Source of the DNA: Candidatus Minthosoma equi
GTDB lineage: Bacteria > Bacteroidota > Bacteroidia > Bacteroidales > Bacteroidaceae
DNA length: 64,000 nucleotides
Direction: 5' to 3'
Assembly (NCBI GenBank): GCA_018064885.1
Contig: JAGHUI010000004.1
Span: 1 to 64,000, forward strand
The notes under the pieces were generated by a model. That model worked only from the letters and a program-made list of their open reading frames with translations, was not told where the DNA came from and ran no database searches. Every line of letters starts with the position of its first letter. Position 1 is the stretch's first letter. Both the position numbers and the translations under genes were made by a program. This document shows positions 18,515 through 34,476 of this stretch, in pieces.

Positions 18515-19696
18515 CTACTTAAATATTTTCTGAGAGAATACGATAAGGTAGTTACGCCAGTTTTTCCAGATGTGGCCATCTTCTGTCTCGTAGTATTCGT
18601 ATGGATAGTTGTTGGCATCCATATACTTACGGAGACCTACATTCTGCTGGAAGAGGAAATCTGTTTTGCCTATTCCAATCCAGTAAAGGTTTGGCTTGTT
18701 TTTGGCAGAGAAAAGTGTCTTGAACTGCTTGCTGATTGTCTTGTCGTTTGCAATCTGCTGATCAACAGGTGTGTTGCCACCTCCCATATTGAGAGCTGCA
18801 GAGAAAAGACCTACATAGCCGAACTTGCCTGGATAGAGCTTTGAAATGGCATAAGTATGGAAACCTCCCATTGACAAACCGCAAATGGCAGTATTGTTCT
18901 TGCCCTTCTGCACACGATAGTGCTTCTCTACGTATGACATTACATCCTTGTATGCCTCTTCTGTAGTTGCCTTTGCTGGACTTTCTGAATGTGACATGAA
19001 GGATGGCTTGTAGAATCCTTTGTGCCATTCTCCTGGAGCTGCATCACAGTTTGCATTGCCATTTGACATAACTACAATCATTGGCTTTGCCTTGCCTTGG
19101 GCAATAAGATTATCCATGATTTGCGCTGCACGACCAAGCGTCACCCAAGCTTCTTCGTCGCCGCCGGCACCATGAAGAAGGTAGAGAACAGGATAGCTGC
19201 CGCCCTTCTCGTATGTTGGCGGAGTGTAGATTGTCATACGGCGCTGAGTGCCAAGAGTTGGAGAGTCATACCAAACACGATTCACGTTTCCATGTGGCAC
19301 ATTATTTACAGAATACATGTCTCCGCAATCGCCTTTCTCCTTGGAAATGATGAACATATTGGTGAAAGAGACAATGTCACGGTTGCGGTACACGTTTGAT
19401 GGGTCAAGATAATCCAATCCATCAACTTTGAACTGGTAAGAATACAATTCAGGGCCAAGAACAGGTGTTGTGTAAGTCCACACGCCTCGCTGCTCTTTCA
19501 TTTCTACTGGCTTAGAGAGGAAGTCGCCTGTAAGTTCCACCTTTACAGCTTTAGGAGCTGCAACACGGAATGTGACAGTTCCATCTTTATTGATCTCAGG
19601 AGATGTGAGGTTCTGAGTGTTGAACAGAGCCTGCTGTGCCAATGCGCTGACAGACATCAGCATGGCACTGGATAAGGTTAGTAATAATTTTTTCAT
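18515..19696 (-). CDS. Secreted CE1-type carbohydrate esterase with N-terminal CBM48-like domain
   Basis: A 393-residue exported protein (signal peptide MKKLLLTLSSAMLMSVSALA). Residues about 30-120 form an early-set/CBM48-like domain (NKDGTVTFRVAAPKAVKVEL). The rest is an alpha/beta hydrolase with YPVLYLLHGAGGDEEAW for the oxyanion region, nucleophile Ser in GLSMGG, acid Asp in GKTDFL and His in EDGHIWKNWR. Similar enzymes remove feruloyl or acetyl groups from xylan or pectin. The start at 19696 is chosen over 19702 because it begins the signal peptide. A diverged palindromic repeat lies just upstream and no promoter is evident. Confidence 0.85.
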   Translation of the reverse strand: MKKLLLTLSSAMLMSVSALAQQALFNTQNLTSPEINKDGTVTFRVAAPKAVKVELTGDFLSKPVEMKEQRGVWTYTTPVLGPELYSYQFKVDGLDYLDPSNVYRNRDIVSFTNMFIISKEKGDCGDMYSVNNVPHGNVNRVWYDSPTLGTQRRMTIYTPPTYEKGGSYPVLYLLHGAGGDEEAWVTLGRAAQIMDNLIAQGKAKPMIVVMSNGNANCDAAPGEWHKGFYKPSFMSHSESPAKATTEEAYKDVMSYVEKHYRVQKGKNNTAICGLSMGGFHTYAISKLYPGKFGYVGLFSAALNMGGGNTPVDQQIANDKTISKQFKTLFSAKNKPNLYWIGIGKTDFLFQQNVGLRKYMDANNYPYEYYETEDGHIWKNWRNYLIVFSQKIFK

Positions 19697-19702
19697 AAAC
19701 AA

Positions 19703-19748
19703 AAGACCCTCTCTGCCCTGCGGGCATCTCTCCCATAAAGGGCGAGAC
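19703..19748 (+). repeat. C/G-rich palindromic repeat, copy A (diverged)
   Basis: AGACCCTCTCTGCCC at one end and CTCCCATAAAGGGCGAGA at the other match the ends of copies B-G, though the middle has drifted. It sits between the esterase start and the ThiE/TenI-like gene. Confidence 0.5.
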
Positions 19749-19809
19749 CATGCGGAACAACCCGGGTCATGGCTTTTGAATTTTAATTATTTAGCTATTG
19801 AAGTCTCAA

Positions 19810-19850
19810 GTTTTCGTTTTGGTTTTGGTTTTCGTTTTGGTTTTCGTTTT
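19810..19850 (-). repeat. AACGAAAACCAAAAC-type repeat block
   Basis: Read on the minus strand, a run of AAAACGAAAACCAAAAC units begins right at the stop codon of the ThiE/TenI-like gene. It is related to the blocks at 1777, 26782 and 30706. Confidence 0.8.
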
Positions 19851-20403
19851 ATCTCCACGCTGCTCCAAGCATTGCTGCACCAGAGAAACCAAGCTGCTCA
19901 ACCTCTTGCAGGTTTTCTGGACAAATGCCTCCGAGAGCATAGACATTATTTTCAAGAATACCTTGGCTGCGTGCTTCAGCAAGTTCCTCACGAGAAAATG
20001 CCGCCCCATAGCCTTCTTTGGAAATACTGTCAAAAATAGGACTTAGGAATAGATAATCGCACTGCTGCTTGTAAGCCTTGATTTCGTCCAATGAATGGCA
20101 AGAGCGAGATACGGTAATCGGACGAGAAAGGCGTTCCTCAGCAAACCATGCTGGCAGTTCTGGATTTCTGCTATTGATATGAATGCCTCCAAGCGAGTAT
20201 TCCTTTGCTAAAGAATGATGGTCATGCACAACAATACGATGACGGAATGGCAGAGCTATGCGCTCAATCCATTCTGCCATTTCTTGTTTCGTCGCTTTGG
20301 GTTTGCGAAGGTGAAGATGCTGCATGCCTTGCTCAAACTTTTGGTTGACTAGCACTGTTTCACCTTCGAAGAAATCAGGACGTGTGATTACTATTATTTT
20401 CAT
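19849..20403 (-). CDS. Second ThiE/TenI-like protein
   Basis: A 184-residue protein of the thiamin phosphate synthase/TenI superfamily: HLHLRKPKATKQEM, VVHDHHSLAKEYSLGGIHIN, FLSPIFDSISKEGYG and VYALGGICPENL follow the ThiE barrel. It is shorter than the operon's main ThiE (208 residues) and lacks the typical diphosphate-binding GTxxNT and TxTK elements. It may therefore act as a TenI-type thiazole isomerase or have a relaxed role. It is the last gene of the thiamin operon, 50 bases after thiH. Confidence 0.75.
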   Translation of the reverse strand: MKIIVITRPDFFEGETVLVNQKFEQGMQHLHLRKPKATKQEMAEWIERIALPFRHRIVVHDHHSLAKEYSLGGIHINSRNPELPAWFAEERLSRPITVSRSCHSLDEIKAYKQQCDYLFLSPIFDSISKEGYGAAFSREELAEARSQGILENNVYALGGICPENLQEVEQLGFSGAAMLGAAWR

Positions 20404-20453
20404 TCCTTTAAGAAATAACTCGACTTTAACTTATAATCTTTCCGTCTCGGCTT

Positions 20454-21587
20454 TCAAGCATTAACTTTCAACTTATCAAAGCAAGCATCCCAATCTTTCC
20501 ATACTGGTTCTATGCCTCTATCCTTGAGTGACTTTGCAATCTCTTCTACTGTTCTATCATCACTTACACTAAATTGCTCAAGTGCTTGAGGATAAGTATA
20601 GTAACCACCTGGATTAACGCGGCTCGCTGCAGACATGGTTGTGACTCCAAGAGTACACATATTATTACGTATGAACTCTGGTTCGCGTGTAGAATAGGAA
20701 ATATCTACATCGTGGTCAAAGATACGCATGGCAAAGGTGATCTGTGCCAGCTGCTTGTCATTGACAAAGCAATTTGGCTGGAAGCCTTCGTTCTGTGCAG
20801 GGCGCATGCGAGGGAAGTTTACGGAATACTTTGTTCGCCAGTATTTCTTCTGAAGATAGCGCAGATGATAAGCAAGCATAGCAACGTCTGTGCGCCATTC
20901 TTTTTCCAATCCAAGCAATGCTCCCATGCCGATAGAATGAACGCCAGCCATACCCATGCGGTCAAAACCGTCCAAACGCCATTCGAACTTACTTTTCATG
21001 CCACGAGGATGATACAGCTTGTAGTTCTGGGCATTATAGGTCTCTTGGAAACAGATCACTCCGTTCAAGCCATGATGAGTGAGCATCTCATAATCCTCGG
21101 TTGACAGTGGCATAACCTCAATCTTAAGATTTGAGAAATAAGGCTTTGCACGGTCAAGTGCTTTGGCAAGATAACCAACACCTGCCTTTGCTGGATTCTC
21201 TCCTGTAACAATGAGCAGATTCTCAAAAGGACCGAGTTTCTTGATAGCCTTGTATTCATCCTCACACTGGTCAATCGTAAGTATTGTGCGTGCCATTGGA
21301 TTCTCTCGATGGAAGCCGCAATAGACACATGAATTGCTGCATGAGTTGGTGATGTAGAGCGGAATGAACATTGACATTGTCTTGCCAAAACGCTCACGAG
21401 TGTATTTCTGTGAGAGTCGTGCCATCTGCTCAAGATAAGGCTCAGCAGCAGGAGATATAAGTGCCATGAAATCAATGACATCAAGATGGCTCTTTGCCAA
21501 AGCTCGGCGTACATCCATATCGGTCATCTGAGCAATGCGCTCTGTGGTTTCATCCCAACTTATATTTTTTATTACTTCTGAAAACAT
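20454..21587 (-). CDS. thiH: 2-iminoacetate synthase ThiH
   Basis: A 377-residue radical SAM enzyme that cleaves tyrosine to give dehydroglycine for thiazole formation. The iron-sulfur motif CSNSCVYC is followed by the ThiH-typical GFHRENPMAR, and the C-terminus has GVTTMSAASRVNPGGY. Length and motifs match the anaerobe-type ThiH, rather than the ThiO oxidase, which suits an anaerobic gut bacterium. It starts two bases after the thiF stop. Confidence 0.93.
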   Translation of the reverse strand: MFSEVIKNISWDETTERIAQMTDMDVRRALAKSHLDVIDFMALISPAAEPYLEQMARLSQKYTRERFGKTMSMFIPLYITNSCSNSCVYCGFHRENPMARTILTIDQCEDEYKAIKKLGPFENLLIVTGENPAKAGVGYLAKALDRAKPYFSNLKIEVMPLSTEDYEMLTHHGLNGVICFQETYNAQNYKLYHPRGMKSKFEWRLDGFDRMGMAGVHSIGMGALLGLEKEWRTDVAMLAYHLRYLQKKYWRTKYSVNFPRMRPAQNEGFQPNCFVNDKQLAQITFAMRIFDHDVDISYSTREPEFIRNNMCTLGVTTMSAASRVNPGGYYTYPQALEQFSVSDDRTVEEIAKSLKDRGIEPVWKDWDACFDKLKVNA

Positions 21588-21589
21588 GA

Positions 21590-22387
21590 TTAAAACTTTT
21601 TAGAGCATGGCTGAAAGGCATACTCCTTGATTGTTGTTATTGTAGGATTGTCTCCGCAAAGGTGACATCCTGTATTCTTTTCGAAAGGAAAGCGGTTAAA
21701 TTGCATGTTCAGGGCATCAAAGGTAAGGAGAGCATTTGTAAGAAGTTCGCCTGTACCAGTAATACATTTGATAGCTTCTGTTGCCTGCAAAGTGCCGCAA
21801 ATTCCGGCAATACTTCCTAAGACTCCTACCATTGAACATGTTTCAACATCCTTTTGCAATGGCGGTTCTGGAAATAAGCAACGATAACACGCTGTGCCTG
21901 GAATGTGAGTCATAATCTGACCATTAAAGCGATTAATTCCTCCCATACAGAAAGATTTTCCTGCCATGACACACGCATCGTTGATAAGATATTTAATGGC
22001 AAAATTGTCCGTTCCGTCAATGACAAAATCATATTCTTTTACCAAATCAAGAATAGTGTCTTCTGTAACATAAGAACTGTATTTTATGACCTTAACATCT
22101 GGATTGAGATCATTGATAGCTCGTTCGGCAGAATCTACTTTATCCTTTCCAAGATCAGCAGTCCTATGAATGACTTGCCGTTGCAGATTTGTAATAGATA
22201 CCGTATCGCCATCAGCAATTCCAAGAGTGCCAACCCCTGCTGCTGCAAGGTAGAGGGCGCAGGGCGAACCAAGTCCACCTGCACCAACAATAAGCACCTT
22301 TGAATTTAACAGTTTCTCCTGACCATCAGGACCTATACCATCAAGAATAAGATGACGATTGTATCTACGTTTCTGTTCTGCGTTCAT
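21590..22387 (-). CDS. thiF: Sulfur-carrier adenylyltransferase ThiF
   Basis: A 265-residue E1-like enzyme that adenylates the C-terminus of ThiS. It shows the nucleotide-binding VLIVGAGGLGSPCALYLAAA, the arginine-containing NLQRQVIHR and a zinc site built from CYRCLFPEPP and a C-terminal CHLCGD pair. Its ATG directly follows the thiC stop (TAAATG). Confidence 0.92.
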   Translation of the reverse strand: MNAEQKRRYNRHLILDGIGPDGQEKLLNSKVLIVGAGGLGSPCALYLAAAGVGTLGIADGDTVSITNLQRQVIHRTADLGKDKVDSAERAINDLNPDVKVIKYSSYVTEDTILDLVKEYDFVIDGTDNFAIKYLINDACVMAGKSFCMGGINRFNGQIMTHIPGTACYRCLFPEPPLQKDVETCSMVGVLGSIAGICGTLQATEAIKCITGTGELLTNALLTFDALNMQFNRFPFEKNTGCHLCGDNPTITTIKEYAFQPCSKKF

Positions 22388-24986
<2,599 letters not shown>

Positions 24987-25030
24987 AAGACCCACCCCTT
25001 ACCCCTCCCTTGCATGGAGGGGAATGAATG
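24987..25030 (+). repeat. C/G-rich palindromic repeat, copy D, directly before thiG
   Basis: AAGACCCACCCCTTACCCC then TCCCTTGCATGGAGGGG, abutting the thiG start codon. It has the same orientation as copy B. In the mRNA the hairpin would end a few bases before the ATG. Confidence 0.75.
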
Positions 25031-25054
25031 CCCAGGAGTGAAAGGCTTTATTTG

Positions 25055-25681
25055 TTATTTACTACTATTATTCACTATTTCCAAAAGACGCTTCATTTCA
25101 TCCACAGGACTCTCCGCACGAAGCACCGTGCCGCTGATGGCAATGCCAGTAACGCCCGTCTGCATGATTGCAGGAATGTCATCTGCAGTAATACCGCCTA
25201 TAGCAACAATAGGAATATCTATCTTTTCCTCTTTCATTTTCAACACGATATCCATATACCCCTCAAGTCCTAATATAGGAGAAAGCTTTTCCTTTGTTGT
25301 CGTAAAACGGAATGGTCCGCAACCAATGTAATTAGCACCATCCTGATAATGCTTGCGAACATCCTCAAACGTGTTTGCCGTACCGCCGATGATGAAATCC
25401 TTGCCAAGAATGCGGCGAGCCTCAGCAACAGGCATGTCGTTCTTGCCCAGATGCACACCGTCAGCACCAATGGCCTTCACCATATCCACACGATCATCAA
25501 TGATGAACGTAGCACCATGCTCCTTGCACATTTTCTGCGCCTCAAGAGCCATCGGCAAGACATCCTCATCTGAAGCGCCCTTCACCCTCAGCTGAATCCA
25601 TCGGCAACCGCCCAAGAGAGCAAGCCTTATGCTGTCAAGGTACGAATACTGCTCTGTGTAATGCGAAATAAACTGAATCAT
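25055..25681 (-). CDS. thiE: Thiamin phosphate synthase ThiE
   Basis: A 208-residue barrel enzyme coupling HMP-diphosphate and thiazole phosphate. Motifs: WIQLRVKGASDEDV, FIIDDRVDMVKAIGADGVHL, IIGGTANTFEDV, YIGCGPFRFTTTK and VAIGGITADDIPAI, matching full-length ThiE. The start at 25681 overlaps the thiS stop as ATGA, implying coupled translation. Confidence 0.93.
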   Translation of the reverse strand: MIQFISHYTEQYSYLDSIRLALLGGCRWIQLRVKGASDEDVLPMALEAQKMCKEHGATFIIDDRVDMVKAIGADGVHLGKNDMPVAEARRILGKDFIIGGTANTFEDVRKHYQDGANYIGCGPFRFTTTKEKLSPILGLEGYMDIVLKMKEEKIDIPIVAIGGITADDIPAIMQTGVTGIAISGTVLRAESPVDEMKRLLEIVNNSSK

Positions 25682-25875
25682 CCTCCACAAGCAGCTTTAA
25701 TGATTACGACATTAGCACCTTCCGTTAACAGAGTACCCTCCCACTCTGTTCGTGGCACCATCTTATTTGAAACAGCAACAGCCACACCTCTTTCAGGCAA
25801 GTTCAGCTCTGCTGCAAGCTCACTAAGGCTCTTTGTCTCAGTCTCTGTCTGCTTATTGTTAATCAAAATTTTCAT
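25678..25875 (-). CDS. thiS: Sulfur carrier protein ThiS
   Basis: A 65-residue ubiquitin-fold protein ending in the required Gly-Gly (KAACGG), which is adenylated by ThiF and thiocarboxylated before handing sulfur to ThiG. VAVAVSNKMVPRTEW is the conserved central strand. Its stop overlaps the thiE start by four bases. Confidence 0.93.
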   Translation of the reverse strand: MKILINNKQTETETKSLSELAAELNLPERGVAVAVSNKMVPRTEWEGTLLTEGANVVIIKAACGG

Positions 25876-25921
25876 CTTTCAATATATATATTTACAACTT
25901 TTGAAATTCATCTGCATAGCT

Positions 25922-25962
25922 TTCTCCCTCCCTATGTGGCAGGGTTCGGGGAGAGGGTCTTT
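25922..25962 (+). repeat. C/G-rich palindromic repeat, copy E, at the end of thiD
   Basis: CTCCCTCCCTATGTGGCAGG then GTTCGGGGAGAGGGTCTTT. The last ten codons of thiD and its stop lie in this copy, so the repeat supplies the C-terminus VKTLSPNPAT. Confidence 0.7.
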
Positions 25963-26756
25963 ACATGATTCACAGGTCCATGTCCGTGTCCTATCTCGTA
26001 GTCAGCTCCTGCAATGATAGCCTCATTGATGAAGTTCTTGGCAAATTTTGCCGCCTCCACCACCGACAGCCCCTTTGACAATGCCGAAGCCAAGGCAGAC
26101 GACATTGTGCATCCTGTGCCATGAGTATTCTTGGTGTTGATTCTAATGGAAGGCAGTTCCGTTATGGAACCATCCACATTATTATAAAAAATATCAATAA
26201 GTTTTTCTTCCGTCAAATGTCCAGCCTTGAGAAGCACAGACGTGCCGTATTTCTCTCCCAATTGCTTTGCCGCATCATAAAGATTCGCCTGTTTATCCAG
26301 CACTTTGCCATCCAAAAGAATCTCAGCCTCAGGAATGTTCGGAGTGATAACCGCAGCAAGCGGAAGCAGCTCCGTTCTGAGCGACTGCATAGCACCCTCC
26401 TCTATCAGTCGATGACCGCTCGTGGAAACCATTACAGGATCAACAACAACATTCCTGCATCCATATTTCCTCAACATGCGGACAATGCACCTCACAATCT
26501 CACCCGATTGAAGCATGCCAATCTTAATGGCATCAGCACCAATGTCGCTCAGCACGGCATCAATCTGCCCTTCCACAAACTCCACGGGCACAGGATGAAC
26601 GCCAGTAACGCCCAGCGTATTCTGCACCGTAACAGCAGTAATAGCTGTCGAAGCATAGCATCCGCATGCCGATATAGTCTTAATATCAGCCTGAATGCCA
26701 GCACCGCCGCCGCTATCGCTTCCTGCAATAGAAAGAACAGTATTGTAGTGTTTCAT
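25932..26756 (-). CDS. thiD: Hydroxymethylpyrimidine (phosphate) kinase ThiD
   Basis: A 274-residue ribokinase-fold enzyme that phosphorylates HMP and HMP-phosphate. Signatures: VLSIAGSDSGGGAGIQADIK at the N-terminus, NVVVDPVMVSTSGH, and the anion-hole motif NTHGTGCTMSSALASAL. It is the first gene after the TPP riboswitch. The natural end was probably near GHGHGPVNH; the following residues come from the palindromic repeat. Confidence 0.93.
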   Translation of the reverse strand: MKHYNTVLSIAGSDSGGGAGIQADIKTISACGCYASTAITAVTVQNTLGVTGVHPVPVEFVEGQIDAVLSDIGADAIKIGMLQSGEIVRCIVRMLRKYGCRNVVVDPVMVSTSGHRLIEEGAMQSLRTELLPLAAVITPNIPEAEILLDGKVLDKQANLYDAAKQLGEKYGTSVLLKAGHLTEEKLIDIFYNNVDGSITELPSIRINTKNTHGTGCTMSSALASALSKGLSVVEAAKFAKNFINEAIIAGADYEIGHGHGPVNHVKTLSPNPAT

Positions 26757-26781
26757 AATCACTCTTTATGTATATTTCAAT

Positions 26782-26811
26782 TAGTTTTCGTTTTCGTTTT
26801 AGTTTTCGTTA
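26782..26811 (-). repeat. AACGAAAACTAAAACGAAAAC-type repeat in the thiD leader
   Basis: On the minus strand a short AACGAAAACTAAAACG-like tandem lies between the TPP riboswitch and the thiD start, 25 bases upstream of the ATG, where the riboswitch's expression platform might act. Confidence 0.75.
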
Positions 26812-26879
26812 TTTATAAACAACGTCAACAGACGAAACGCCAACCGTTAACCAAAAGAGCGACCACATTCCGAACTACT

Positions 26880-26958
26880 CAATCCCTACGGCAGTACTAA
26901 CTGCATCAGGTTCGAAGGTATAATCTCAGCCCCCACACACTTCATTGGGGCACCCTTT
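26880..26958 (-). ncRNA. TPP riboswitch (THI element)
   Basis: The minus strand carries the conserved TPP aptamer: GGGTGCC near the 5' end, GGGGGCTGAGATTATACC, GAACCTGATGCAGTTAG and TACTGCCGTAGGGA. It lies upstream of thiD and downstream of a Bacteroidetes promoter, so it should repress the whole thiamin operon when thiamin diphosphate is plentiful. I see no classical terminator stem with a T run directly after it, so control could act on translation. Confidence 0.95.
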
Positions 26959-26972
26959 TGATGTTCCGATAT

Positions 26973-27005
26973 GCAAATGTACGGTTTTATCGGATAACAA
27001 CCAAA
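26973..27005 (-). promoter_or_regulatory. Promoter of the riboswitch-thiamin operon
   Basis: On the minus strand TTTG (27002-27005) and TACATTTGC (26973-26981) are 20 bases apart, just upstream of the aptamer. Confidence 0.7.
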
Positions 27006-27090
27006 TTTTCTGCATCAAGATTATTATTTTTCTTTCCGATAGCCAAATAAACATAATAAATCAATAACTTTGCAAACGGGAAAAGGGAAA

Positions 27091-27107
27091 TGTAACACGA
27101 TTGTAAC
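27091..27107 (-). promoter_or_regulatory. Two GTTACA repeats 11 bases apart before the response-regulator gene
   Basis: Read on the minus strand, GTTACA occurs at 27102-27107 and 27091-27096, with ATC-GT between them, as in the array before the porin gene (GTTACAATC shared). This fits a binding site for the adjacent regulator, possibly autoregulatory. Confidence 0.5.
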
Positions 27108-27114
27108 ACAACAT

Positions 27115-27149
27115 TTTGCAGCCGTGTTGCATTTATGCCGTAACTTTGC
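27115..27149 (+). promoter_or_regulatory. Promoter of the two-component operon
   Basis: TTTG at 27115-27118 and TAACTTTGC at 27141-27149 (22 bases apart), with an A-rich 27-base leader to ATG 27177. The GTTACA sites end just upstream. Another TAACTTTGC at 27066-27074 is a possible second promoter. Confidence 0.6.
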
Positions 27150-27176
27150 AAAAAACATAAAACATAAAAATAAATT

Positions 27177-27878
27177 ATGAAGATTCTTGTTGTTGATGAC
27201 GAACAAGATATTTGCGACATTTTGCAATACAATCTTGAAACAGAAGGCTATGAAGTGGTAACTGCAAATTCAGCAGAAGAAGCACTCCAGCTTCCTCTGC
27301 ACGAATTTTCTCTCATTCTATTAGATATCATGATGGGAGAAATGTCAGGATTTCAGTTGGCTCGCAGATTGAAAGCAGATACTGTAACAGCTCAAATTCC
27401 AATCATTTTCATTACCGCCCTTGACGACGAAGACAACACCGTCAAAGGACTAAACATAGGCGCAGACGACTACATCGCCAAACCATTGAGCCTTAGAGAA
27501 GTGAAAGCAAGAGTGAAAGCCGTGCTCAGAAGAATTACTGCTCCTGTATCTTCAACAAGGAAAGAAGAGTATGGGCCTTCATCTGATAATGAAATTCGCT
27601 ATGAAGGCATCACTATCAACCTCAGCGCCAAGACAGCCACTCTCGACAATAATGATCTTCAACTGACAAAACTTGAATTCGAACTGCTATCCCTTCTTCT
27701 GCAACATCCCAACAAGGTATTTTCACGCGAAGACCTGCTTGCAAGATGCTGGCCACAAGAAGTGTATGTTCTCGATCGAACCGTAGATGTGAACATAACC
27801 CGACTCAGAAAGAAGATTGGCGCATACGGAAAACAGATAAAGACTCGTATTGGCTATGGCTACTGCTTTGAGAAGTAA
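27177..27878 (+). CDS. OmpR/PhoB-family response regulator
   Basis: A 233-residue regulator. The receiver domain (1-120) has the acidic pocket Asp7-Asp8, phospho-acceptor Asp50 in LLDIMM, and lysine in IAKPLS. The winged-helix DNA-binding domain (about 135-230) has FELLSLLLQHPNKVFSREDL and VDVNITRLRKKIG. The neighbouring phosphate porin and Pit transporter, and the 11-base direct repeats in front of this gene and the porin, suggest a PhoB-like role; that is an inference. Its end overlaps the kinase gene start. Confidence 0.9.
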   Translation: MKILVVDDEQDICDILQYNLETEGYEVVTANSAEEALQLPLHEFSLILLDIMMGEMSGFQLARRLKADTVTAQIPIIFITALDDEDNTVKGLNIGADDYIAKPLSLREVKARVKAVLRRITAPVSSTRKEEYGPSSDNEIRYEGITINLSAKTATLDNNDLQLTKLEFELLSLLLQHPNKVFSREDLLARCWPQEVYVLDRTVDVNITRLRKKIGAYGKQIKTRIGYGYCFEK

Positions 27879-29301
27879 ATCGTTCCAGAAGAACCTGCTG
27901 ATGAGCATTGGCGGCATATTCCTCCTCTTTGCTATCAGTTTCAGCGTATATCAATACAATCGCGAAAAAGAATATAAGATAGACATTCTTCATTCCAGAT
28001 TGCAGATGTATAACTACGAGATGATGCAATCACTCGGAGAAGAAGGAATGTTGAACGACAGCCTTTTCAATGACTATACTAAATCGCACAGCATTGACCG
28101 TATGCGTGTCACAATCATTGACACTAAAGGTCGTGTATTACAGGACAATAACTATATTGACACAGATTCATTGTCGAACCATCTGAAGCGCCAGGAAGTA
28201 CAGCAAGCACTTGCTAAAGGCAACGGCTATGACATCAAGCGAACATCACAATCCACTCACGAAACGTATTTCTATTCTGCCACTCGCTTCGGCAACCTCG
28301 TCATCCGCTCCGCAGTACCCTATTCTGCCGAACTCACAGAATCGCTCAGAGCAGACAACACATATATTTATTTTACTATACTCATCACCCTTCTGCTTGG
28401 CATTGCTCTCTATTGGAACACTCATCGTATCAGCCGCCACATTGGATATTTGCGTGAGTTTGCCATGAAAGCAGAACAAGGCAAACAGTTGGATCATGAA
28501 TTGGAGCGCCGCCTTCCTGATGATGAGCTTGGCGACATTTCCCACACCATCATCACTCTCTATTGGAAACTGCGCAACTCCGAAGAAGACAAGATTCGCA
28601 TCAAGCGACAGCTCACCCAGAATGCCGCCCACGAGCTCAAGACTCCAGCTGCAAGCATACACGGATATTTGGAAAGCGTACTTGATAATCCCGAAATGCC
28701 AAATGACAAACGACAGCATTTCCTTGAGCGATGCTATGCCCAGAGCGAACGCATGAACAAGCTTTTGCTTGATATGAGTGTCCTCACAAAGCTTGACGAA
28801 ATGGAAAGCAAAAGCACACAACAGAAAGATGAGTTTCACAAAATCAATGTTCTCACAATCATCCAGAACGTACTGGAAGACACAGATCTGCAACTGCAGA
28901 GCAAGGGAATAAAGACTATGCTTACAGCTCCTCAGCACATTGAAATAAATGGAGATCAGAGTCTTATCTACAGCATTTTCCGAAACCTCATAGACAATGC
29001 CATTGCCTATGCAACAGGAGCAACAGAAATCAAAATCAAGTGTGAAAAAGCAGACGACACAAAGGATAAAGACCTATACCATTTTGCCATTAGCGATAAC
29101 GGTCAAGGAGTTGACCCTTTACATCAGCCACATTTGTTTGAGCGCTTCTACAGAGTTGACAAAGGCAGAAGCCGCAAGCTCGGAGGCACAGGCTTAGGAC
29201 TTGCCATTGTGAAAAATGCCGTTGCAGCTCATGGAGGAACAGCAACAGCCGAGACCACTCCAGGCGGAGGTTTGACCATACGATTCACGCTTCATGGGTA
29301 G
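27850..29301 (+). CDS. Sensor histidine kinase (PhoR-like)
   Basis: A 483-residue membrane kinase: a transmembrane segment near residues 15-35, a periplasmic sensor part, a second membrane segment near 175-195, a HAMP-like linker, phospho-acceptor His261 in NAAHELKTPAAS, and a full ATP-binding domain with N box NLIDNAIAYA, DNGQGVDP and GGTGLGLAIVKNAV. It overlaps the regulator gene by 29 bases; ATG 27856 is an equally good start. It is probably the cognate kinase in a phosphate-responsive pair. Confidence 0.9.
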   Translation: MAMATALRSKSFQKNLLMSIGGIFLLFAISFSVYQYNREKEYKIDILHSRLQMYNYEMMQSLGEEGMLNDSLFNDYTKSHSIDRMRVTIIDTKGRVLQDNNYIDTDSLSNHLKRQEVQQALAKGNGYDIKRTSQSTHETYFYSATRFGNLVIRSAVPYSAELTESLRADNTYIYFTILITLLLGIALYWNTHRISRHIGYLREFAMKAEQGKQLDHELERRLPDDELGDISHTIITLYWKLRNSEEDKIRIKRQLTQNAAHELKTPAASIHGYLESVLDNPEMPNDKRQHFLERCYAQSERMNKLLLDMSVLTKLDEMESKSTQQKDEFHKINVLTIIQNVLEDTDLQLQSKGIKTMLTAPQHIEINGDQSLIYSIFRNLIDNAIAYATGATEIKIKCEKADDTKDKDLYHFAISDNGQGVDPLHQPHLFERFYRVDKGRSRKLGGTGLGLAIVKNAVAAHGGTATAETTPGGGLTIRFTLHG

Positions 29302-29330
29302 ATTGTTTTTTGATATTTTGTTGCAAATAC

Positions 29331-29380
29331 ATTACAAAGGCGTTACAGCCATGTTACAATCATGTTAAGATATTGTTAGA
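29331..29380 (+). promoter_or_regulatory. Five GTTACA-like direct repeats at 11-base spacing before the porin gene
   Basis: ATTACA (29331), GTTACA (29342), GTTACA (29353), GTTAAG (29364) and GTTAGA (29375) are each exactly 11 bases apart. They end four bases before a -7-like CACATTTGC (29383-29391) with no -33 TTTG, the layout of an activator-dependent promoter. The period matches Pho boxes bound by PhoB/PhoP dimers in other phyla. The two-copy version before the regulator gene supports a shared regulon. Confidence 0.65.
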
Positions 29381-29492
29381 AGCACATTTGCAACAGAAAT
29401 GAAACATGTTTGCAAACACCCTGTAACAGCCATTTGTGACCTTTGCAATGTCAATAAAGAGGCACAACCATTTCCTCTGTTGACATTACAAT

Positions 29493-30569
29493 ATGACAAT
29501 AGAAAAAGCAAAGAAAATCACAAAGATTTACAATTGGATCAGGCTTATCATCTTGGTTGTAAGCCTTACCTTCTTCTGTGCGGGGTATTTGAGCGCACAG
29601 ACAGCAAGTCCGCAAATTCATGGAATCCTTCGCGGGAAGTACGAATATCAGCCAGATCTTGGAGCATCAAGATTTGAAGTGCGCAATGCCAGACTTTCCG
29701 CCAATGGTTCCCTCACAAACTACTCCTCATACAAATTGGAGGTTGACCTTTGCGACGAATCAGCCATCAAAATGAAAGACGCATGGGTGAGAGTTAATCC
29801 TTGGAACAGCCTCAGGATGACTATAGGTCAACAGAGAATGCCGTTCTCTATTGATGCTCACCGCAACCCTTCGGCGCAGTACTTTGCCAATCGTTCCTTC
29901 ATTGCAAAACAAGTTGGCGACATGCGAGATGTTGGTTTTCAGACAGGTTATGATTTCAAGAACAAAGAAAACCGAACCCTTCTCTCGCTCGACGCAGGAG
30001 TTTTCAACGGCAGTAACCTTGACAATCAGAAGACTGCTTGGTTCAAGTCGCCAGGATACTCTGCTCGCATTCAGTATTATCCAATAAAGGGATTTGCCAT
30101 CATCCCAAGCATCCAGCATCAGCAGATTGCAAATCGTGAGACTTACTACACTTCGCTCGACTTCGGTTCTTACTACGAATCAAACGGTTGGCACATAGAA
30201 GCAGAATACCTGCATAAGTTCTACGGAAGAGATGCTTTCGACGATTGCAATGCCGTTGACGCAATGATAATCTACTCCCAGAAACTCAACAACAATCAAA
30301 GTTTCATTGAAAAGATTTCATACTTAGGGCGTTACGACTGGATGCAAGATCATTCATCTGGCAAAAACGGTTTTGCTGAAAACTCTAAGCTTTTGCAACT
30401 TACTGATGCTGAACGTCATCGCATGACACTCGGTGCAACCTTCAGCCTTCGCAACGCTGCTTTTCCAACAGACATACGCCTCAACTACGAAAAGTACTGG
30501 TATCCACATGGCGGTGCCAAGGAAAGCGAACAGGACAAACTCGTATGTGAACTCATGATAAAATTCTAA
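29493..30569 (+). CDS. Phosphate-selective porin (OprO/OprP family)
   Basis: A 358-residue outer-membrane barrel with a signal anchor-like start (IIILVVSLTFFCAGYLSAQ, residues about 18-36). The body alternates beta strands with aromatic girdles, including FEVRNARLSANGSL, MTIGQQRMPFSID and the terminal LVCELMIKF ending in Phe as expected for BAM-dependent barrels. Family members admit phosphate or polyphosphate. It follows the GTTACA array and precedes the acidic microprotein and Pit transporter, forming a probable phosphate-uptake operon. Confidence 0.85.
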   Translation: MTIEKAKKITKIYNWIRLIILVVSLTFFCAGYLSAQTASPQIHGILRGKYEYQPDLGASRFEVRNARLSANGSLTNYSSYKLEVDLCDESAIKMKDAWVRVNPWNSLRMTIGQQRMPFSIDAHRNPSAQYFANRSFIAKQVGDMRDVGFQTGYDFKNKENRTLLSLDAGVFNGSNLDNQKTAWFKSPGYSARIQYYPIKGFAIIPSIQHQQIANRETYYTSLDFGSYYESNGWHIEAEYLHKFYGRDAFDDCNAVDAMIIYSQKLNNNQSFIEKISYLGRYDWMQDHSSGKNGFAENSKLLQLTDAERHRMTLGATFSLRNAAFPTDIRLNYEKYWYPHGGAKESEQDKLVCELMIKF

Positions 30570-30580
30570 AAAACACACTT

Positions 30581-30709
30581 ATGAAATATGATGAAGAATT
30601 AACCATCTTCCCAGACTTTGACGAATTGGAAGTTCCTCGCAACCTCTCATCATCCATATTTGATGATGACGACGATGACGACTGGGATGATGACGACGAC
30701 GACGATTAA
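30581..30709 (+). CDS. 42-residue aspartate-rich microprotein
   Basis: An ATG at 30581 opens a frame of 42 codons ending at TAA 30707. It reads MKYDEELTIFPDFDELEVPR, then about seven mostly uncharged residues, then seven Asp, one Trp and seven Asp. It begins 11 bases after the porin stop and ends 43 bases before the transporter start, so it lies inside the operon. Both GAT and GAC codons are used, so the tract is not a simple trinucleotide expansion. The charge suggests binding of cations or of a basic partner; the function is unknown. Translation is not proven. Confidence 0.6.
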   Translation: MKYDEELTIFPDFDELEVPRNLSSSIFDDDDDDDWDDDDDDD

Positions 30710-30741
30710 AACTTAAACGAAAACTTAAACGAAAACTTAAA
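30706..30741 (+). repeat. AACTTAAACGAAAACTTAAAC-type repeat before the Pit gene
   Basis: Three AACTTAAACGAA-like units lie between the microprotein stop and the GTG start of the transporter gene. They are related to the blocks at 1777, 19810 and 26782. Confidence 0.8.
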
Positions 30742-30752
30742 TATTCAATAAC

Positions 30753-33083
30753 GTGGATACTCTTTTTTTCGGAATAGTCATATTCCTCATTGTCCTTGCC
30801 GTGTTCGACCTTGTTGTCGGCGTGAGCAACGACGCAGTCAATTTCTTGAATTCTGCCATCGGCGCTAAGGTGGCTCGTTTCAGAACCATTGTGCTTATCG
30901 CCGCTATTGGCGTATTTGCTGGCGCAGCAATGAGCAACGGCATGATGGACGTGGCACGTCACGGCATCATGACGCCAGAATACTTCTCGTTCTACGATGT
31001 GATGTGCGTCTTCCTTGCTGTCATGGTGACAGACGTAATCCTTCTGGACGTGTTCAACACGCTCGGAATGCCTACGTCAACAACCGTCAGCATGGTGTTT
31101 GAATTGCTTGGCGGCGCATTTGCCATCGCTCTCATCCAGATCATCGGCGGCGCAACAGATGCTGATGGCGTAGCCCTCACGCTTGGCGATCTGCTGAACA
31201 CGGAAAAGGCGCTCAGCGTCATTCTTGGCATCTTCCTCAGCGTGGGCATAGCTTTCGCCTTCGGCACTCTCGTTCAATGGATTGCCAGAATCATATTCAC
31301 CTTCACCTATAGACCCTCCCCCTTTGCCCCCTCCCGTAAAGGGCGGGAAATAGTATCCTTTGTCAAACAAACGCTATTTGGCGGAATATGTTTCACGAGC
31401 ATCATCTGGTTCTTGCTTATCAATGGATTGAAAGGTTCGTCGCTGATGACTTCTGACTTGAAACTATGGATTAATGAGAATACATGGATGGTATTGGGCA
31501 TAACATTTTGTGCAGCATTCCTTGTTAGTGCGCTATTGTATCTACTCCCCCGCCCTTCACGGGAGGGGGCAAGGGGGGAGGGTCTTCCAGTGCTCAAGTT
31601 CGTCGTCCTTCTCGGCACATTCGCCCTCGCCATGGCATTCGCTGGCAACGACCTCGTAAACTTCGTTGGTGTTCCTCTTACTGGTCTCGACGCATACAAC
31701 GACTATATGGCTAATGGTCAGGGCGACGCATCCGCATTCATGATGAAATCCCTGATGGACACAGCCCACACACCTGTCATCTACCTCATTCTGGCAGGCG
31801 TGGTGATGGTGCTCTCACTCGTGTTCTCAAAGAAAGCGCAGAACGTGGTCAAGACATCCGTTGACCTTGCCCGACAGGACGAAGGTGACGAGATGTTCGG
31901 CTCAAGCGGCATTGCACGCATCCTTGTGCGCACATCCCAGAGAATAGCCAACGCCGTTTCTGGCATCGTGCCAAAGAACATGAGCCGATGGATCGACTCA
32001 CGATTTAACTCCTATGCAGCCTTCCTGGAAAAAGACGCAGCCTTCGACCACATCCGCGCTTCCGTCAACCTCGTGCTTGCAGGACTTCTCGTCGCCTTCG
32101 GCACAAGCATGAAACTTCCTCTCTCAACAACCTACGTCACCTTCATGGTGGCAATGGGAACATCGCTCGCCGATCGTGCCTGGAGTCGTGAGAGCGCCGT
32201 GTTCCGCATCACAGGCGTGCTGAGCGTCATAGGCGGCTGGTTCATCACAGCAGGCGTAGCCTTCATCATGTGCTACCTCATCACCAACGTCCTCTTCTAC
32301 GGCTCATTCATCGCCATGGGCATCGCCATCATCGTAGCCATCTTCCTCCTCGTGCGCAGCAACGTGATTTACAAGAAGAGAGGCGGCAAGAGAAAGCAGA
32401 AGGAGGAGAAGCGTGAGATGGCAGACGATATTTTCAGAAGCATCATCCGCTCCAGCGACAAGAAGAAATGCTACGAGTATCTCTGCGAACACATGGAACT
32501 CACAACAGACGAAGAATTGAGATCAGCCATAGAGCACTACGAGACGCTGACCACAGCATTCTTCCACGAAGACTACCGCACCCTCAAGAAGATGACCACA
32601 CTCCTTGAGGACGAGCGAAAAGAAATCAAGCGACTGCGCCGCAAGCAAGTCATCGCCCTCCGCAGAGTAGATCCGATGGTCAGCGTAGAGAAAGGCACAT
32701 GGTACTTCCTCGTAAACAGTTCCCTCTCACAGATCGTCTATTGCCTCAAGCGCATGGCAGAACCTTGCCGAGAGCATGTAGGCAACAACTTCCACCCAGT
32801 GCCAGAACCATACGTGCGCCAGTTCATGTCCTATCGCGACGAAGTGATCCACGTGTTCCGTCAGGCACTCACGTCACAGAATGTGGAAGACGTGCGCAAC
32901 GATGCCGCATCCATACAGGCAGCCCTCTCCGACTATCGCAAGAGCATCATTCAGGACTTGCAGACCAAGCAGCTCAACATAGAAAGCATGACCGTCTTCC
33001 TCTCTCTCGTTCAGGAATCGCAGGAACTCCTCAGCGGATTGCGTCACACGATAAGAGGCGAGGTGAAGTTCAAAGAGAATTAG
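30753..33083 (+). CDS. Pit-family inorganic phosphate transporter with PhoU-like C-terminal domain
   Basis: A 776-residue inner-membrane protein starting at GTG. The two Pit signatures are visible: GVSNDAVNFLNSAIGAK near the N-terminus and AGNDLVNFVGVPLTG near residue 300, followed by membrane segments to about residue 545. The cytoplasmic C-terminal 220 residues are helical and charged, resembling the DUF47/PhoU-like domains fused to or paired with Pit. Residues about 186-202 and 262-278 are encoded by two inverted copies of the C/G-rich palindromic repeat and would form proline/arginine-rich inserts, placed near membrane-segment ends. The frame is kept open through both, so the gene is probably functional. 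Confidence 0.9.
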   Translation: MDTLFFGIVIFLIVLAVFDLVVGVSNDAVNFLNSAIGAKVARFRTIVLIAAIGVFAGAAMSNGMMDVARHGIMTPEYFSFYDVMCVFLAVMVTDVILLDVFNTLGMPTSTTVSMVFELLGGAFAIALIQIIGGATDADGVALTLGDLLNTEKALSVILGIFLSVGIAFAFGTLVQWIARIIFTFTYRPSPFAPSRKGREIVSFVKQTLFGGICFTSIIWFLLINGLKGSSLMTSDLKLWINENTWMVLGITFCAAFLVSALLYLLPRPSREGARGEGLPVLKFVVLLGTFALAMAFAGNDLVNFVGVPLTGLDAYNDYMANGQGDASAFMMKSLMDTAHTPVIYLILAGVVMVLSLVFSKKAQNVVKTSVDLARQDEGDEMFGSSGIARILVRTSQRIANAVSGIVPKNMSRWIDSRFNSYAAFLEKDAAFDHIRASVNLVLAGLLVAFGTSMKLPLSTTYVTFMVAMGTSLADRAWSRESAVFRITGVLSVIGGWFITAGVAFIMCYLITNVLFYGSFIAMGIAIIVAIFLLVRSNVIYKKRGGKRKQKEEKREMADDIFRSIIRSSDKKKCYEYLCEHMELTTDEELRSAIEHYETLTTAFFHEDYRTLKKMTTLLEDERKEIKRLRRKQVIALRRVDPMVSVEKGTWYFLVNSSLSQIVYCLKRMAEPCREHVGNNFHPVPEPYVRQFMSYRDEVIHVFRQALTSQNVEDVRNDAASIQAALSDYRKSIIQDLQTKQLNIESMTVFLSLVQESQELLSGLRHTIRGEVKFKEN
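31310..31357 (+). repeat. C/G-rich palindromic repeat, copy F, inside the Pit gene
   Basis: AGACCCTCCCCCTTTGCCCC then CTCCCGTAAAGGGCGGGAAA and TAGTATC. In the gene frame it encodes RPSPFAPSRKGRE. It is inverted relative to copy G about 180 bases on. Confidence 0.85.
31538..31586 (+). repeat. C/G-rich palindromic repeat, copy G, inside the Pit gene
   Basis: GTATCTACTCCCCCGCCC then TTCACGGGAGGGGGCAAG and GGGGGAGGGTCTT. It encodes LLPRPSREGARGEGL, the same reading of the repeat as in thiC. Confidence 0.85.
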
Positions 33084-33156
33084 GAAAAGGGGCATGTGTC
33101 CAAGGTTTCCCTCACACTTCTTTTGTTTTCTCAATGGCACATGCTCTTTTCCTTTG
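33083..33156 (+). terminator. Long stem-loop after the Pit gene
   Basis: GGAAAAGGGGCATGTG (33083-33098) pairs with CACATGCTCTTTTCC (33138-33152) around a loop of about 40 bases. It starts at the stop codon. The T run is weak, so it may stabilise the 3' end rather than terminate. Confidence 0.5.
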
Positions 33157-33238
33157 ATAAAAACTTGACAAAGTCAATATTTTTTCGTAAATTTGCATTG
33201 CAATTCTATACTTTAGAAGTAAAATCACACAAACCAGT

Positions 33239-33317
33239 CAAAGCTTTTGTCTAATGAATCAAAAGCTTTGTCTAACGGGACAAAAGCCTTGTCGCACCAG
33301 CCAAAGCTTTTGTCCCG
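33239..33317. repeat. Cluster of CAAAGCTTTTGTC words with a 12-bp hairpin
   Basis: The word (C)AAA(A)GC(C/T)TTTGTC occurs four times in both orientations. CGGGACAAAAGC (33276-33287) pairs perfectly with GCTTTTGTCCCG (33306-33317). No protein is encoded. Confidence 0.75.
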
Positions 33318-33329
33318 TTTTGTTTACGA

Positions 33330-33405
33330 ACATTTTCATGTTGATGATACGAGCGTTTACACGTTGCAATTACGAGCATGCGCCTGTTCAACTTGCGAGT
33401 GTGTG
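33330..33405. repeat. Degenerate tandem ATTACGAGC-type words
   Basis: Three imperfect units of 21-24 bases (ACGAACATTTTCATGTTG, ACGAGCGTTTACACGTTGCA, ACGAGCATGCGCCTGTTCAA) follow the hairpin cluster. The word TACGAG recurs in the repeat at 44782. The remainder up to 33470 shows nothing recognisable. Confidence 0.45.
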
Positions 33406-33471
33406 GTTATTTCAATTATTAGCATTTTATATTTTGGCAAAGCAATTACTTCTTATATCAAATATTTTGTA

Positions 33472-33480
33472 TAACTTTGC
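33472..33480 (+). promoter_or_regulatory. Promoter -7 element of the coiled-coil/GIY-YIG pair
   Basis: TAACTTTGC, 33 bases before ATG 33514. No clear TTTG partner is visible. Confidence 0.5.
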
Positions 33481-33513
33481 ACAAGGGAAATAAACACCAA
33501 AAGATTTTTCGAT

Positions 33514-34476
33514 ATGAATCCAAGAACATTTCTTAGCATATACCAAACTTATTCTTTAGAAAAGATTAGCGCACTTAGCAAACAAGGGTTAGCCATGCAA
33601 TATGCTCAATGTGAGCAACTGGTAAAACTAAAAAATGAGATGGCTGCCAACATGATGGCAACAAATAAAATACTCCAGAATCAGATAAAAGAATTAGAAA
33701 GACAAGAGGCACAGAGATATTTTAAGTCATTAACCTTCAATACAAAAAAAACACTTGAGATAATAGAACAACAGGAAAACACCAACTTTAAGTCTTTTCT
33801 TCGTGAATTGTTTCTTCCTGCACTCAAATCTTATGCTAAACAAGCAATGGATGTGTTGGAAGAAATACATGACAAAGAATACGCCAACTCCATTCTTAAA
33901 AGAATTCAAAGTATAGATTTATCATCGTCAAAAAACACAACATACAATAATTCTCCATGGCAATTGTTTCTACAGATACAAAGGATTCAGAATGACTCAC
34001 AATTAAATAAAAAACTTTGTGAAAAGCAAGCTGAGTTATCTGAGGCAAATGTTAGGCTTAAAAAAGAAACAAGCAAGCTTTCCACTTACAAAACAGCAAA
34101 AGGTTGTTTCTTAATTACTTGTATTCCTCTAGCATTTACTTTGTTGGGATTGTTTTTTATGCTAATAAACAAAGATTATGAAGTAATTAGCGGTGGGGTA
34201 ATATGCTTATTAATAAGCCTTGCTGTATTTTCTCTTGGTTTGTATTGGAAAAACAAATACAAAAAATATAACAATACACATTACAAATCCGAAGAACATA
34301 AAAAATATGCAGAATTAGTTAGTAACCTCGAAGATGAAATATGTGACATTAACAGGGAAATGACCAATAAACAAATAGAATATAACGAATGCTTACAGGC
34401 CATAACGTTGGATGTCCCTGACTGGGAAAAAACATTTAATGACATCGTTAATTGTATTCCACCAATAAACTCATAA
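33514..34476 (+). CDS. Unrecognised membrane protein with coiled coils
   Basis: I do not recognise this 320-residue protein. Residues about 25-75 and 165-200 are charged, glutamine/lysine-rich and predicted to be coiled coil. Two adjacent hydrophobic segments (CFLITCIPLAFTLLGLFFML and GGVICLLISLAVFSLGLYW) form a hairpin anchor near 205-250. A second coiled coil follows (HKKYAELVSNLEDEICDINR). No catalytic motif is seen. Codon use is A/T-rich compared with the flanking genes. It lies six bases before the GIY-YIG gene, so the two are surely co-transcribed. A role as a membrane-linked sensor or effector partner is speculation. Confidence 0.65.
   Translation: MNPRTFLSIYQTYSLEKISALSKQGLAMQYAQCEQLVKLKNEMAANMMATNKILQNQIKELERQEAQRYFKSLTFNTKKTLEIIEQQENTNFKSFLRELFLPALKSYAKQAMDVLEEIHDKEYANSILKRIQSIDLSSSKNTTYNNSPWQLFLQIQRIQNDSQLNKKLCEKQAELSEANVRLKKETSKLSTYKTAKGCFLITCIPLAFTLLGLFFMLINKDYEVISGGVICLLISLAVFSLGLYWKNKYKKYNNTHYKSEEHKKYAELVSNLEDEICDINREMTNKQIEYNECLQAITLDVPDWEKTFNDIVNCIPPINS

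Follow-up and report, generated by a model that had tools for sequence, protein, structure and literature searches.

The Pit transporter gene of Candidatus Minthosoma equi carries two palindromic sequences, here called F and G, inside its reading frame. The locus raises the question of what these sequences are and how the gene of a membrane protein could come to contain them without being interrupted. The gene lies in a 64,000-nucleotide stretch of contig JAGHUI010000004.1, which was analysed as a whole and is referred to as the window. An initial annotation had taken F and G for palindromic repeats inserted in frame, had likened them to the coding elements of Rickettsia and had named no established equivalent in Bacteroidetes.

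Repeat copies F and G in the Pit gene

The peptides RPSPFAPSRKGRE and LLPRPSREGARGEGL are both read through in an intact Pit open reading frame with no stop. F and G form an inverted repeat of 37 nt, whose arms (31311-31347 and 31549-31585) are 95% complementary and lie 201 nt apart. These results confirmed the annotated arrangement of two opposite copies that encode the two peptides with the frame unbroken. Folding of positions 31305-31592 as single-strand DNA gave -63.4 kcal/mol (z = -8.1), and none of 200 shuffled sequences was equally stable. The repeat model (R1) scored 52 bits for F (E=2.6e-12 over 31310-31351, plus strand) and 59.5 bits for G (E=2.6e-14 over 31545-31586, minus strand), both copies being among the 12 sequences from which the model was built. 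When up to 3 mismatches were allowed, the hairpin motif matched 11 times, at 6 window sites (palindromic sites match on both strands), with 0.01 matches expected from shuffles. An element of the F and G kind leaves on average 4.2 of the 6 frames open, compared with 3.5 for random 42-mers, so the read-through of one copy is by itself unremarkable.

Table 1 The Pit gene, its repeat copies and further copies in the window (positions are those of the window; bit scores are from the R1 model)
Feature	Position	Strand	Basis
Pit/PHO4-family sodium-phosphate transporter gene with C-terminal PhoU-like domain, 776 aa	30753..33083	+	ORF; PF01384 E=2.3e-25; fold match 6l85
Repeat copy F, REP-like hairpin element, encodes RPSPFAPSRKGRE, residues 187-199	31310..31353	+	R1 model; low-confidence loop 188-197
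Native Pit coding sequence separating F and G; normal core, element-adjacent parts divergent, low GC3 (0.48)	31354..31541	+	
Repeat copy G, same element as F reversed; other strand reads LLPRPSREGARGEGL, residues 264-278	31542..31586	-	R1 model; low-confidence loop 268-277
Further copy, first of convergent pair	24064..24105	+	R1 41.1 bits
Further copy, second of the same convergent pair	24175..24216	-	R1 51.1 bits
Further copy	24987..25027	+	R1 41.8 bits
Diverged copy	25920..25961	-	R1 23.2 bits, E=1.4e-4

Several other features were observed in the window. A very acidic ORF of approximately 40 aa, with aspartate runs at its end as judged by eye, lies directly 5' of Pit at about 30591-30710 on the plus strand. 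AT-rich arrays with units of the AAACTATAACG or AAACTTAAACG type occupy four places (1758-1898, 19796-19847, 26781-26812 and 30699-30750). A TPP riboswitch at 26866-26967 on the minus strand scored above the Rfam gathering score and was the only Rfam match at the gathering threshold over 19000-34000.

The predicted structure of Pit (mean pLDDT 77, pTM 0.60) matches 6l85, a sodium-dependent phosphate transporter, at E=3.6e-7, while its comparisons with PhoU structures gave E-values above 0.05 with a probability near 1; no solved structure matches Pit by sequence at E<=0.01. The two low-confidence loops of Table 1, with pLDDT below 50, make up most of both peptides. They are bounded by helices at residues 150-185 and 198-223 in the case of F, and at 244-264 and 280-321 in the case of G. 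The model thus places both peptides in unstructured inter-helix loops, and because these lie two helices apart they are probably on the same side. Both loops are basic, in agreement with the annotated view of basic peptides at the ends of membrane helices.

Pit was aligned with 86 homologues, comprising 79 of the 80 loci of one set (L126, with two frames, was dropped) and 7 genus loci; at least three of the 86 are duplicates (L016/L108, L017/L128 and L018/L149). None of the 86 carries the F peptide, as judged by eye, or the G peptide, as judged by segment length, and peptides at the same places in distant Pit proteins, which would have spoken against insertion, were not found in this alignment. 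The G segment measures 27 aa in the window and 16 aa in all 86 homologues, a net gain of 11 aa, and about four native residues appear to have given way to the 15-codon element. The F segment, also 27 aa in the window, measures 30 aa in 62 homologues, 34 in 4 and 15 in 20. Based on these lengths, F would be a replacement of a loop rather than a pure insertion, unless the ancestor had a short loop. The annotated insertion of palindromic repeats therefore holds for G as a net gain and has to be modified for F. In a search of 301 family genomes, of which 113 have a match, all listed matches except the window's own begin at query residue 7 or later, so that none of these covers the whole F peptide.

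Analysis of identity along the protein located the divergence of this region. Compared with the reference pairs, identity to 46 close relatives is reduced chiefly over residues 181-210 and 241-270, which comprise the elements and their inner sides, whereas the core at 211-240 and nearly everything outside are normal. Smaller dips occur at residues 151-170 and 421-440. When residues 204-262 are averaged, the mean identity is 0.51 to 38 relatives with flanks at 0.80-0.85, compared with 0.71 (sd 0.06) for other pairs. GC3 of the segment separating the copies, at 0.48 versus 0.63 and 0.69, ranks 19th among 715 windows. Short-loop homologues supply two of the three best matches to the middle segment, and no close donor is present among the matches in the 301 family genomes, the best sharing 60% identity. 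Replacement of the F-G block appeared strong from segment averages and was weakened once the divergence had been located beside each element. Since F replaced a loop and the inner sides of both copies are unusually divergent, a clean cut-in is only putative. A Pit orthologue of a genus relative (G002, contig 154, L022) has one open frame and lacks approximately residues 187-283, near the F-G block; it also lacks approximately 542-733, most of the PhoU-like domain.

The repeat family and its copies in other genes

The window genome is a draft of 3.51 Mb in 114 contigs. It contains at least 65 R1 matches at E<=1, at least 49 of them at E<0.01; both counts are lower bounds, as 150 of 518 candidates were scored. 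The family consists of dispersed, GC-rich, hairpin-forming and near-identical palindromic copies, most of which lie outside genes. Two main forms can be distinguished by eye from their ends, GGGGAGTAG-NTAC and GGGCGAGGGAG-nCCATnCGG. With stricter filters, 33 of 45 genus genomes, the window's own included, have one or more R1 matches at E<=1e-3.

Ten neighbouring pairs among the 49 copies lie less than 700 nt apart (a limit of our choosing), of which eight are convergent, the Pit pair being one of them, two are tandem and none is divergent; all eight opposite-orientation pairs within this distance are thus convergent. Orientations of neighbours farther apart are mixed (++ 6, -+ 5, +- 2, -- 2). 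The spacers of the eight convergent pairs are mostly unlike, and resemblance is limited to two weak cases (68% over 92 nt; 14 identical nt). The pairs therefore seem to bracket native DNA, and these spacers lend no support to movement of pairs as a unit in this genome. A convergent pair at G000 C49:275-658 has a longer first element part, perhaps a third subtype, and a spacer with its own inverted repeat.

Copies were counted as lying within genes if the ORF was at least 300 aa long and extended at least 12 codons to either side of the copy; ORFs shorter than 300 aa, cases adjacent to a start or stop, and ORFs antisense over UvrA were dropped beforehand. Eight of the 49 copies qualify: two in Pit, two in UvrA and one each in ORFs on contigs 12, 96, 70 and 24. 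Random placement at 90% coding (a simple ORF count of the window) would put about 44 of the 49 in genes, and the in-gene copies therefore look like rare survivors. The UvrA copies, in a protein matching TIGR00630, encode DPLPEPSPVKGEGEPF and KTLPLPLPLPSMEGG in frame. The contig-12 ORF has no Pfam or NCBIfam match and has relatives in 32 of the 45 genus genomes, its own included, while the contig-96 ORF has a BT4734-like match below its cut-off. The copy lies shortly before the C-terminal end in the contig-70 ORF and 12 codons before the end in the contig-24 ORF, which we take to be a secreted-type, PhoH-like protein.

Elements of this type recur at the same loops in related species. UvrA is matched in 44 of the 45 genus genomes, and sequences from 29 of the 43 other matching genomes were aligned with that of the window genome (G000). 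Element-type inserts occupy loop 1 (near residue 221) in G000, G030, G040 and G043, and loop 2 (near residue 608) in G000, G040 and possibly G021. The DNA at these inserts is GC-rich and hairpin-forming; in G030 (L183) loop 1 holds a nearly perfect inverted pair with its spacer, encoding about 44 aa. UvrA loops of other relatives differ in length without repeats. In the linker of the contig-12 gene, element-type peptides occur in 5 of 14 distinct loci (G000, G009, G010, G014 and G035), with repeat-model matches in all but G010, where the peptide alone is found; this linker also varies without repeats.

A related element of about 115-120 nt recurs as a unit in sister species. It was found in frame in a ComEA-like helix-hairpin-helix (HHH) gene adjoining a RAYT-like gene, where its peptide reads RPSPQPSPxMGRETMRxxGNEPDGLPIMGEMSAGQRGS, and nearly the same peptide is encoded in AroE of G030. 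Matches to the peptide at E<=0.01 are present in 22 of the 45 genus genomes, the window's own included, and plasmid and phage collections gave none at E<=0.001. Of those listed, 30 matches in long open frames were examined and 12 were not counted as hosts: nine appeared antisense or spurious by eye (L328, L330, L332, L335, L336, L338, L340, L342 and L349), and three were ambiguous (L345, L350 and L351). L350 had no family match in the HMM searches. These searches covered nine proteins and then eight of these plus the ComEA-like protein. The hosts identified by HMM are leucyl-tRNA synthetase (LeuRS), an ArgE/DapE-type deacylase, Mfd, aspartokinase/homoserine dehydrogenase, QueA, topoisomerase III, an RND adaptor, AroE and the HHH protein; for L346, L352, L347 and L331 the assignment came solely from their matching flanks. 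The family match spans both sides of the insert in 7 of the 9 hosts and one side only in the RND adaptor and the HHH protein. Matching flanks place the insert at the same site in LeuRS of G014, G009 and G010, in Mfd of G021 and G019, and in the deacylase of G030 and G043. Solved relatives of AroE and QueA lack the inserted stretch, and of the two inserts in topoisomerase III only the first is clearly absent from solved relatives. The frames in which the sister elements are read differ between genes. The same or related elements thus lie in frame in other conserved genes, both in the window genome and in sister species.

The insert shared by the ComEA-like genes was compared across 12 loci from 11 genomes, some copies being eroded. 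Its pN/pS is 0.75, compared with 0.23-0.26 around it, and its pS is 0.36, compared with 0.55-0.66. These values indicate that the peptide of this one shared insertion is old and evolves under weak constraint as protein; the low pS may reflect constraint at the DNA level or conversion between copies. This one ComEA-like site, which holds the in-frame element in many genomes, presents a series of repeat decay within coding sequence (L281 931-1869, L262, L263, L267, L284, L286, L324-L327 and L341), in which some copies are eroded.

Relation to known systems and candidate mobilisers

Rickettsia provides the best-known cases of palindromic repeats that code for protein, and these are often discussed in terms of genome decay. 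The Rickettsia elements are palindromic repeats lying in frame within many unrelated conserved proteins, as described in the relevant parts of PMC10969869 and PMC3733652. The annotated likeness to them is strengthened by UvrA and the further genes that hold copies in frame, and by the sister-species element (about 115-120 nt), whose peptide is shared by unrelated proteins. The elements of the window genome differ in being shorter, in using several reading frames and in belonging to another phylum, and the comparison concerns behaviour, not sequence. No account of protein-coding palindromic elements from Bacteroidota emerged from our search of the open-licence literature, which lacks most subscription papers. 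The annotation has to be supplemented in one respect: coding intragenic REPs had already been described from several phyla, uvrA being one of the genes hit, in the sections consulted of Di Nocera, De Gregorio and Rocco (2013, PMC3733652).

The same sections describe the GTAG and CGTC REPs concerned as short dispersed palindromes, single or as inverted dimers and mostly intergenic, with RAYTs proposed to mobilise the GTAG kind; CGTC repeats are named in Bacteroidetes, coding copies there going unmentioned in that portion of the text. The repeat of the window genome likewise consists of dispersed hairpins, single or as dimers. It differs in that its close opposite pairs are all tail-inward (TT), whereas head-to-head (HH) dimers predominate among the REPs surveyed and TT dimers are frequent among GTAG families (PMC3733652, in part). 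GTAG REPs are defined by a GTAG that stays unpaired at the hairpin's 5' end. In the present repeat 13 of the 49 copies have GTAG on the 3' side of the hairpin, and 4 of the 49 have it close to the 5' end or, as CTAC, in the tail; copy F has ATAG instead. The unpaired CGTC at one end that defines the other superfamily, or its complement, is found near an end in 1 of 49 copies. The repeat is accordingly placed outside both superfamilies.

REPIN/RAYT systems offer a further comparison. Subclasses 2.4 and 2.6 are reported from Bacteroidetes, REP insertions inside transposase genes are noted for subclass 2.4, and the systems combine inverted REP pairs with Y1 HUH transposases (PMC6006769, in the part concerned with these subclasses). 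The window genome differs in that its pair spacers are mostly unrelated DNA and the fetched regions around its own RAYT-like genes contain no R1 copy. BrickBuilt MITEs of Porphyromonas gingivalis are also small non-autonomous repeats in Bacteroidota; they differ in being reported as strictly intergenic in the corresponding part of PMC10969869.

Two RAYT-like proteins with HUH and Y1-type motifs are encoded in the window genome, one of 449 aa on contig 35 (MPDHCHVLV and YIRRNAPRLW) and one of 353 aa on contig 9 (MPDHLHMIV and YLDDNPRRL). Profile matches of the contig-35 protein are weak (PF01797, 23.5 bits against a cut-off of 23, over model positions 38-85 only; NF047646, 32.7 bits, below the cut-off of 80). 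PF01797 proved too insensitive as a transposase test for the RAYT-like type, and the protein of the window genome was used as query instead, identifying the family in 34 of the 45 genus genomes, its own included. Near RAYT-like genes the repeat gave 9 hits in 8 of 40 chosen regions versus 1.4 expected, an expectation computed at a stricter threshold that two of the 9 hits would fail. Six of the nine lie in copies of one ComEA-like gene and one in AroE; the remaining 2 or 3 are chance-like (P 0.42 and 0.17). One gene family and a lenient comparison carry the excess, and the association was dropped as independent evidence. With linkage chance-like, we infer mobilisation from the kind of element, by which a RAYT (Y1 HUH) transposase is the likely mobiliser of the repeat.

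Origin and consequences of the coding copies

We consider it quite probable that F and G are copies of a dispersed REP-like palindrome of about 42-50 nt, convergent in Pit and kept because they preserved the frame and fell in an inter-helix loop. The repeat as a whole is best read as a REP/REPIN-like element that is perhaps moved by a RAYT, the in-gene copies that survive being those that preserve the frame and occupy tolerant loops. A RAYT (Y1 HUH) transposase would act on single-stranded hairpins and so move the repeat. Two copies would have come to lie convergent in the Pit gene, each retained because the frame was kept and an inter-helix loop was hit. The peptides would be translated and would represent tolerated disordered linkers rather than a selected function.

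Retention for a function, with Pit expression or regulation tuned by the long F-G hairpin (as DNA or mRNA) or by the basic peptides, would suit the very stable fold, the basic loops and the fewer synonymous changes in the shared ComEA-like insert. We regard it as unlikely, given that the Pit inserts are common to none of the 86 homologues, that the best-sampled insert is weakly constrained at the protein level and that reading frames differ between host genes. Somewhat less probable again is that the F-G block came from another Pit lineage by recombination, or that gene decay is beginning, with the repeats only marking break points. The low averaged identity of residues 204-262, the short-loop homologues among the best middle matches, the low GC3 and the shortened Pit of G002 fit such an event; confinement of the divergence around a near-normal core, the lack of a close donor among the family matches and the intact Pit ORF speak against it.

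The proposal that F and G are ordinary hypervariable GC-rich loops, alike by chance and with no mobile repeat, can point to the UvrA loops and the contig-12 linker, which also vary without repeats. It is very improbable in view of the dispersed near-identical palindromic copies, mostly outside genes, and of the 6 window sites against 0.01 expected matches, with copy number and E-values contrary to it. An assembly artefact might be suspected in a draft of 114 contigs and deserves the least credence, as the intact frame lies well within an 87-kb contig and insertions of the same kind occur in several other genomes.

Returning to mobile repeats kept in tolerant loops, on balance we lean towards the wider view that a REP/REPIN system of the genus keeps adding linkers to housekeeping proteins, the UvrA and contig-12 loops having been hit in several species. 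Even leucyl-tRNA synthetase, expected to be essential, carries such an insert. If true, the Rickettsia elements would have an equivalent in Bacteroidota, in a setting other than a reduced intracellular genome. Core genes with inserts in Bacteroidaceae whose genomes measure 2-4 Mb, alongside relatives' orthologues without them, offer a natural insertion-scanning experiment, the inserts showing which loops of UvrA, Mfd, topoisomerase III, LeuRS or Pit tolerate some 11-40 extra residues. The origin of new protein segments from repeated, possibly mobile, DNA thereby becomes directly testable.
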